The notes beneath the pieces are model-generated. The model was given only the letters and a program-made list of their open reading frames with translations. It ran no database searches and was not told the origin of the DNA. 64,000 bases of DNA from Acidobacteriota bacterium (GTDB lineage: Bacteria > Acidobacteriota > Vicinamibacteria > Vicinamibacterales > UBA2999), in contig VFZN01000001.1 of NCBI GenBank assembly GCA_016871195.1, positions 1 through 64,000 on the forward strand. Direction: 5' to 3'. A program made the translations under genes and the position numbers. Positions 41,668-42,274 of the stretch are shown one piece after another (the stretch's first letter is position 1; the number at the start of each line of letters is the position of its first letter).

Positions 41668-42204
41668 TCAGACTCCCGCCTCGACGGCCACTTCATCGAC
41701 CGGATCGATATCGACCAGCCGCACGTGCACCTGTTCCGATCGCGCCGTGGGCACGTTCTTGCCCACATAGTCGGCCTTGATCGGCAGCTCGCGGTGACCA
41801 CGATCGACCAGCACCACCAGCTGAATGGCCCGCGGCCGCCCGAAGTCGGTGACCGCGTCCAGCGCCGCACGCGTCGTCCGCCCCGTGAACAGCACGTCGT
41901 CGACCAGCACGACCGTGCGGTCTTCGATGGGGAAGGCAATGTCGGTGCTGCGCACGATGGGCTGCGAGCCGGCGGTGACACGCGTGAAGTCGTCGCGGTA
42001 CAGCGTGATGTCGAGCGTTCCCGTGGGCACATCATGCCCGGTCACCGACTTGAGCACCGACGCGATGCGCCGCGCGAGGGGCACACCGCGTGAGCGGATG
42101 CCCACCAGGCATACGCCCTCGATGCCCTGATTGCGCTCGAAAATTTCGTGGGCCATGCGCGTGATGGCACGCGCGATGCGGTCAGCATCCATGACTATCG
42201 GCAT
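41668..42204 (-). CDS. pyrR: PyrR, RNA-binding pyrimidine operon regulator / uracil phosphoribosyltransferase
   Basis: The 178-residue protein has the PRTase fold with PRPP loop [19 protein letters not shown]. It has the PyrR-typical N-terminus ([20 protein letters not shown]), [14 protein letters not shown], and the basic RNA-binding surface near [13 protein letters not shown]. The first ATG (42204) overlaps the stop of a 12-codon leader ORF. A possible own SD, AGGGG, lies seven bases upstream inside that leader. A hairpin with the PyrR-recognition features lies just upstream (42239-42274), so PyrR-UMP probably represses its own operon. Confidence 0.95.
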
Positions 42205-42233
42205 GGCGCGACCCCTGCAGTCGGGTGATTCAT
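42195..42233 (-). CDS. Leader peptide of the pyr operon (12 aa)
   Basis: An ATG at 42233 preceded by AAAGAGGAG opens a 12-codon [15 protein letters not shown]. Its TAG stop overlaps the first codons of pyrR by ten bases in a different frame. The ribosome-binding site is the best in the region and is the 3' arm of the PyrR-type hairpin. Translation of this leader would bring ribosomes onto the pyrR start, so it is a plausible coupling device. No codon bias for a particular amino acid is seen, which argues against classical attenuation. Confidence 0.6.
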
Positions 42234-42238
42234 GGGCT

Positions 42239-42274
42239 CCTCTTTGCGAACTCTCAGGTTCGCGCTTAAAGAGG
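42239..42274 (-). promoter_or_regulatory. PyrR-binding RNA hairpin that sequesters the Shine-Dalgarno
   Basis: In the minus-strand mRNA CCTCTTT pairs with AAAGAGG as the lower stem. On the 5' side TTTAA runs from the stem into an asymmetric internal bulge (AAGC). GCGAAC pairs with GTTCGC as the upper stem, and the terminal loop is CTGAGA. PyrR of Bacillus recognises a hexaloop CNGNGA and a UUUAA element in a purine-rich bulge; both are present here in the right order. The 3' arm is itself the AAAGAGG of the leader's SD. Repression would therefore be translational, as described for mycobacterial PyrR, rather than by an anti-antiterminator; no terminator hairpin is seen after it. Confidence 0.8.

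Follow-up and report, generated by a model that had tools for sequence, protein, structure and literature searches.

The window (the whole stretch of DNA analysed here, 64,000 nt) comes from a genome of 3.08 Mb that is 98% complete, and carries on its minus strand a pyr operon that opens with pyrR and continues through pyrB, pyrC, and a pyrE-like gene. A gap of 5 nt separates pyrR from pyrB, pyrB overlaps pyrC by 17 nt, and the pyrC stop codon shares a single base with the pyrE-like gene, so the operon is closely packed. The PyrR protein matches PDB entry 1non, which we take to be the structure of B. caldolyticus PyrR, at 225 bits, and its ten best named relatives are from Vicinamibacterales and Acidobacteria MAGs. 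PyrR is common in these bacteria, being present in 264 of 297 sampled genomes of the phylum (E ≤ 1e-25) and in 133 of 149 sampled genomes of the order (E ≤ 1e-40).

Between positions 42300 and 42150, the minus strand presents, in order, a -10-like hexamer, a hairpin, an open reading frame (ORF) of 12 codons, and the start of pyrR. The features of the leader and the operon are as follows.

42280..42285, minus strand: -10-like hexamer TAAGCT, just 5′ of the hairpin (sequence)
42239..42274, minus strand: PyrR-type hairpin (fold, covariation, and a match to covariance model R1)
42266..42270, minus strand: UUUAA element at the bulge (sequence; TCTTTAA invariant in 121 aligned hairpins, partly by construction)
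42252..42257, minus strand: hexaloop CUGAGA, of the form CNGNGA (sequence; fixed in 121 aligned hairpins of the order, partly by construction)
42239..42245, minus strand: AAAGAGG, both the 3′ arm of the lower stem and the Shine-Dalgarno (SD) sequence of the mini-ORF (sequence)
42195..42233, minus strand: 12-codon leader ORF with stop codon TAG (sequence; stop position shared with relatives)
42195..42204, minus strand: 10-nt overlap of the leader-ORF end with the pyrR start (stop end at +10)
41668..42204, minus strand: pyrR (NF003549, E 7e-74; 1non_A, E 3.3e-66)
40703..41662, minus strand: pyrB, aspartate carbamoyltransferase (NF002032, E 2e-123)
39394..40719, minus strand: pyrC, dihydroorotase, with its presumed start at ATG 40719
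38777..39394, minus strand: pyrE-like orotate phosphoribosyltransferase, with a presumed start

The ATG of pyrR occupies 42204-42202, and the TAG of the mini-ORF falls inside the first pyrR codons. The upstream neighbor, at 42331-43221 on the minus strand, encodes an MBL-fold hydrolase with a BLACT_WH domain and ends 56 nt before the hairpin, and read-through from this gene into the pyr operon is possible. The sole Rfam match above cut-off in the 64,000-nt window is a tRNA gene at 10768-10839 on the minus strand.

The leader hairpin and its conservation

Positions 42274-42239 of the minus strand read CCUCUUUAAGCGCGAACCUGAGAGUUCGCAAAGAGG and form a lower stem CCUCUUU/AAAGAGG, a bulge AAGC, an upper stem GCGAAC/GUUCGC, and the hexaloop CUGAGA. 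RNAfold assigns this hairpin -15.6 kcal/mol (z -3.87), none of 200 shuffles folds as well, and the minimum free energy fold is identical to the centroid fold; the whole 101-nt leader is of ordinary stability (z -0.54, with 62 of 200 shuffles as good). An earlier note on this DNA had described a hairpin with a CNGNGA loop and a UUUAA bulge, whose 3′ arm serves as the SD of a 12-codon ORF with a stop overlapping the pyrR start, and each of these features is present in its place. The available portions of PMC7430163 name the terminal loop, the top of the upper stem, and a purine-rich bulge as necessary for PyrR binding, and the window hairpin carries all three by sequence.

The same element recurs throughout the order. 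A strict pattern, consisting of UUUAA, a CNGNGA loop, and at least three pairs beside the loop, matches 100 of the order's 131 leaders but only 2 of 3820 dinucleotide shuffles, so the hairpin is more than a chance occurrence; in other acidobacterial leaders, the pattern is found in 15 of 61. A relaxed pattern, for which correctly spaced UUUAA and CNGNGA suffice and no pairing is required, places a hairpin before pyrR in 123 of the 131. Across 121 distinct hairpins of the order, 89.9% of cells pair and 89 cells show double changes, compared with 29.3 ± 4.7 in shuffles that ignore the relatedness of the leaders. Five of the six upper-stem pairs have changed on both sides, with the two middle pairs varying freely by compensation, and a weaker measure, the number of pairs with any change on both sides, stands at 6 against 4.5 in shuffles and is matched by 65 of 500 of them. 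Covariation had been anticipated in both stems, and the upper stem displays it through these double changes, whereas the lower stem shows little variation, with an outermost pair that does not form in 88 of the 121 hairpins. A loop, UUUAA element, and lower stem that are nearly fixed are what roles in PyrR recognition and as an SD would require, but the invariance of the loop and of UUUAA (TTTAA) arises partly by construction, because the selecting pattern required both.

A covariance model built from the hairpins of this order alone, that of the window included (model R1), has a single significant match in the genome of the window (E 7.4e-12, the next best being 0.25) and matches sites in 128 of 149 genomes of the order, most of whose hairpins are in the model. 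Since R1 was built from this order only, a scan outside the order is a non-circular test, and on 69 such loci it returned 44 matches with E ≤ 0.01. All are in the sense orientation: 24 lie just before pyrR, 19 lie no more than 200 nt after pyrR, and one lies elsewhere. The second pyr attenuator of Bacillus is located after pyrR, according to the available portions of PMC7430163. R1 thus recovers pyr attenuators of Bacillota, and by this measure the hairpin of the order is the same RNA as the Bacillus sites. The Rfam model that had been suggested as a check gave the opposite outcome, with no match of RF00515 to the leader or the genome at E ≤ 10 and none in the 64,000-nt window at the gathering score. 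RF00515 has 115 positions and would span the whole Bacillus attenuator; in 14 control genomes it found a match in nine and exceeded its cut-off in two. Rfam matches of the leader to mir-204, CRISPR-DR20, and RT-15 fell well short of their cut-offs and were discarded. Taken together, the sequence comparisons support the hairpin as a predicted PyrR binding site.

Eight of the 131 leaders have no hairpin by the relaxed pattern. Two of these are recovered by R1 (L070, E 6.8e-5; L077, E 9.5e-11), L035 is masked by N, and L119 is cut at a contig end 10 nt before pyrR, which leaves L096, L128, L130, and L134 without a hairpin. L096 belongs to a second pyrR copy (265 nt upstream, no hairpin) in a genome where the hairpin is present at the other copy, L133. 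L128, L130, and L134, all of genus g192, keep PyrR while the leader hairpin is absent, a natural loss within the order. Places of the order in G347, G340, and G334 lie outside the leader set.

The hairpin is probably close to the 5′ end of the transcript, within a few bases of its beginning, as judged from a hexamer TANNNT, which in 116 of the order's 123 hairpin-bearing leaders starts between 22 and 10 nt before CTCTTTAA, with a peak at -13/-14, compared with 7 of 123 in a control interval. No full sigma-70 consensus was found in the window. With a -10-like hexamer directly 5′ of the hairpin, little room remains for upstream structure.

Leader frames and the first codons of pyrR

Two architectures follow the hairpin in the 117 of 123 leaders that were classified. 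In 32, the 3′ arm of the hairpin is the SD of pyrR itself, here called the direct form, and in the other 85 that arm provides the SD for a leader ORF. The six unclassified leaders comprise L073 and L113, which lack the SD pattern, and L081, L088, L114, and L121, which have no start codon in range. The latter four, all of genus g201, have the hairpin, an open frame, and the usual stop, with no ATG, GTG, or TTG at the usual distance; an unusual start codon or a GTG within the SD is possible in these leaders. Both architectures occur in 5 of 15 families, and a PyrR tree of 50 rows requires 7 architecture changes, of which well-supported branches force only one.

The leader ORFs are 11 to 73 codons long, apart from the misfit L005 (116 codons, with its stop at +173). 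Despite this range, 84 of the 85 end 0 to +16 nt from the inferred pyrR start, 83 overlapping it and one (L008) abutting it, and the stop ends at +13 in 65. Starts shifted by one or by two bases reach this stop interval in 0 of 85 leaders in either case, and shuffled spacers read in a random frame reach it in 3499 of 17,000 trials, or about 21% by chance. When L005 is omitted, the other two frames of the 84 spacers contain 36 and 32 stops and the ORF frame none, a zero that restates the stop-position result. Base composition is nearly equal at the three codon positions, leaving no codon-position bias, and the encoded peptides appear unrelated, with no common sequence by eye. The conservation of the mini-ORF expected by the earlier note therefore applies to its frame and stop position but not to its peptide sequence, and what had been called a leader peptide is better read as a translated spacer.

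The stops are built from codons of pyrR. A stop in the usual ORF frame lies within the first pyrR codons of 84 of 85 leader-ORF genes (all but L008) and of 7 of 32 direct genes (Fisher 3.9e-18), a comparison among genes that share ancestry and for which a tree-paired test of stop against architecture had too few supported pairs. Val4 is encoded by GTG in 54 of 76 leader-ORF genes compared with 3 of 27 direct genes (Fisher 5.3e-8), counts from which genes lacking Val-Met at codons 4-5 are excluded (9 of 85 leader-ORF, 5 of 32 direct). Where leader-ORF genes instead have GTC for Val4, the rare codon GTA or ATA occupies codon 3 in 7 of 10 and yields TAG, and the window pyrR itself is arranged in this way, its ATA GTC giving the TAG stop of the mini-ORF. 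Rare GTA or ATA at codon 3 or 4 is found in 22 of 85 leader-ORF genes and 2 of 32 direct genes, while among the other Val and Ile codons of pyrR these codons account for 16 of 1202 in the leader-ORF class and 8 of 552 in the direct class. Owing to this stop-building bias at pyrR codons 3-4, translation of the leader ORF itself seems to be under selection.

Models for control of the operon

The leader is probably a translational switch under PyrR control, with a sacrificial leader ORF as its intermediary. Transcription would start at the hairpin, and when pyrimidine nucleotide is plentiful, a PyrR-nucleotide complex would clamp this 5′-terminal structure; with the mini-ORF SD held in the 3′ arm, no ribosomes would load. 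When nucleotide is scarce, ribosomes would melt the hairpin and translate the mini-ORF, the sequence of the peptide being irrelevant, and would terminate on the pyrR start. Translation of pyrR and of the packed pyrB-pyrC-pyrE genes would then follow by coupling, either through termination-reinitiation or through unwinding of the pyrR ribosome binding site (RBS) by the ribosome. The combination of a PyrR site, a masked SD, and coupling through a leader ORF had been put forward in the earlier note, and it has gained comparative support at the level of sequence. The accompanying claim that no terminator follows the hairpin also agrees with the data, as no terminator-like site was found in 41900-42450, and only 2 of 85 leader-ORF spacers of Vicinamibacterales contain one.

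Two features weigh against a strict form of this coupling. In the leader-ORF class, pyrR has retained a strong SD (mean -7.7 kcal/mol, against -6.1 kcal/mol for that of the mini-ORF), and the pyrR RBS is at least as accessible as when the spacers are shuffled (0.354 against 0.342 unpaired). Selected occlusion of the pyrR RBS was thus not found in this class, and a strong SD with unselected occlusion means that strict mini-ORF dependence is not predicted by folding. In the window, pairing is predicted for the pyrR start codon and for half of the pyrR SD.

Rho-dependent attenuation offers a different output for the same hairpin. PyrR would block translation of the mini-ORF, the bare spacer, rich in C and poor in G, would load Rho, and transcription of the operon would stop, whereas translation of the mini-ORF would protect the RNA. 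Such a mechanism may also act together with coupling. Spacer composition is as this model would have it: in the 76 of 85 spacers that are at least 50 nt long, C is 0.406 and G is 0.244, with C exceeding G in 72 of 76, while the corresponding values are 0.310 and 0.311 upstream of the hairpin and 0.350 and 0.324 in 165 pyrR windows. C exceeds G in only 5 of 10 other intergenic leaders of the window, a within-genome control that is small and relies on crude gene calls, and C richness may merely reflect a lack of structure. The window's genome has two rho genes (L314, G000:C5:148308-149549; L315, G000:C4:42024-43259), both above the TIGR00767 cut-off at 719 and 712.6 bits. An intrinsic terminator occupies the corresponding position in sister lineages, which suggests that a transcriptional output is either the ancestral state or readily acquired. 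However, the precise overlap of stop and pyrR start is not required by Rho, and the 12-codon ORF of the window is shorter than a typical rut site is said to be. As an account of these leaders, Rho termination is unlikely, yet it is a live rival or partner to the coupling switch, least so for the 12-codon case of the window.

Simple occlusion is considerably harder to defend. If the hairpin concealed the sole effective site of ribosome entry, the mini-ORF being incidental, a pyrR start directly after the hairpin, as in 32 of 117 relatives, would be readily explained, but the choice of stop-building codons would not be expected to differ between the two classes, nor would the frame from hairpin to pyrR be expected to stay open in 84 of 85 leaders; we regard this model as very improbable. 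Scarcely credible are attenuation of the Bacillus type, with an antiterminator and an intrinsic terminator, which has a hairpin core identical in kind but was rejected for want of terminators and finds little space 5′ of the hairpin, and a sensing leader peptide, in which ribosome stalling on a specific nascent peptide would control pyrR and which was rejected, although the short ORF is conserved in position, on its varied length and sequence and absent codon periodicity.

Sister lineages and known systems

The hairpin-ORF module is also found away from the usual pyrR start. In G365, a PyrR-type hairpin precedes pyrC, followed by a 19-codon ORF whose TGA overlaps the pyrC ATG as ATGA (L307, 346-405; hairpin at G365:C2 102204-102242), and the pyrR leader of the same genome (L078) is of the direct form. 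G390 has a second pyrR start with the leader-ORF form, in this case with 18 codons and a stop end at +13, and G350 has a hairpin and ORF before a truncated pyrC-like frame that, on inspection by eye, has no ATG. As far as such sequences can indicate, the module is portable.

Outside Bacillota and the order, 13 of 25 hairpin-positive leaders (12 if the ambiguous pyrR start of L213 is read otherwise) have an ORF running from the hairpin to the pyrR start, with a T-run inside the ORF in 12 of the 13; the remaining leaders comprise 4 of the direct form and 8 without such an ORF. In Bacillota, recognised as such from the titles of their records, the corresponding figure is 2 of 31, a count that omits the hairpin-positive L270, which has no pyrR start. 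Among 20 further acidobacterial leaders, 9 have the hairpin and 6 also have a leader ORF running through a hairpin that resembles an intrinsic terminator. L319, L320, L322, L323, L325, L336, L139, L147, L152, L153, L165, and L181, from other acidobacterial classes, combine the PyrR-type hairpin, an ORF through a terminator-like hairpin, and a stop overlapping pyrR. Judged by their sequences, many relatives seem equipped for termination under ribosome control, and the form in Vicinamibacterales would be a leader-ORF type that has lost its terminator, a direction of change that we infer.

A broader reading of these patterns is offered tentatively, and we hold it with less than even confidence. 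Translation of the leader ORF, regardless of its sequence, may be the output that PyrR regulates, with the module rewired from intrinsic termination in sister lineages to coupling and/or Rho-dependent termination on the C-rich spacer in Vicinamibacterales, and with pyrR codons 3-5 selected for a stop. The codon-choice signal is an unusually clean sequence test for translation of a peptide-independent leader ORF, and through it, switching between a transcriptional and a translational output becomes open to direct test.

Three PyrR systems invite comparison. The Bacillus pyr anti-antiterminator (RF00515; available portions of PMC7430163) shares the CNGNGA loop, the UUUAA/purine bulge, the upper stem, and the position before pyrR. 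The present site differs in that no terminator was found, RF00515 gives no match, and an arm of the lower stem is an SD. For the pyr operon of Thermus ZO5, a leader-ORF attenuator with an intrinsic terminator inside the ORF has reportedly been proposed. There, as here, a leader ORF starts under the PyrR site and ends near pyrR, and a similar layout is seen in other acidobacterial classes and other phyla; unlike the Thermus type, Vicinamibacterales mostly lack the terminator within the ORF, and the window has none. In Mycobacterium smegmatis, pyrR is said to be under translational repression, with a PyrR site over the ribosome binding site. An RBS covered by a PyrR site and the lack of a terminator are common to both, but the RBS covered in the window is that of the mini-ORF and not that of pyrR. 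The mycobacterial likeness drawn in the earlier note suits the direct leaders of relatives better than it suits the window, which resembles the leader-ORF type of sister lineages. The note's mention of acidobacteria agrees with the named relatives of PyrR.

To our knowledge, studies of PyrR RNA regulation cover groups other than Vicinamibacterales, and the present analysis places it outside those groups. PyrR paired with a coupling leader ORF would be a new form of this known regulation, and a single RNA element would span a graded series from a terminator with a leader ORF, through a coupling leader ORF, to direct masking of the SD. Among the literature matches listed, titles and abstracts mentioned neither a PyrR-controlled coupling leader ORF nor PyrR in Acidobacteriota, and the only listed match with both 'PyrR' and 'translational coupling', PMC10986495, concerns transcriptional attenuation in Lactococcus in its available portions.

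The nearest proven logic, by analogy and as far as the available portions of the two sources describe it, is that of CsrA-ORF27-iraD and of the ppe2 uORF. In M. tuberculosis, expression of ppe2 needs an overlapping uORF and proceeds mainly by termination-reinitiation (PMC11260477), an arrangement that shares the overlapping uORF with the window and differs in its signal, a B12 riboswitch and not a protein. In E. coli, CsrA blocks initiation at a short ORF whose stop overlaps the iraD start, and coupling between the two was shown (PMC5574718). The protein, RNA, and pathway differ from those considered here, and the iraD SD is sequestered, whereas no selected occlusion is seen in the pyr leaders; the likeness lies in the window's hairpin, a predicted target of PyrR, resting on the SD of a short ORF whose stop in turn rests on the start of the gene.
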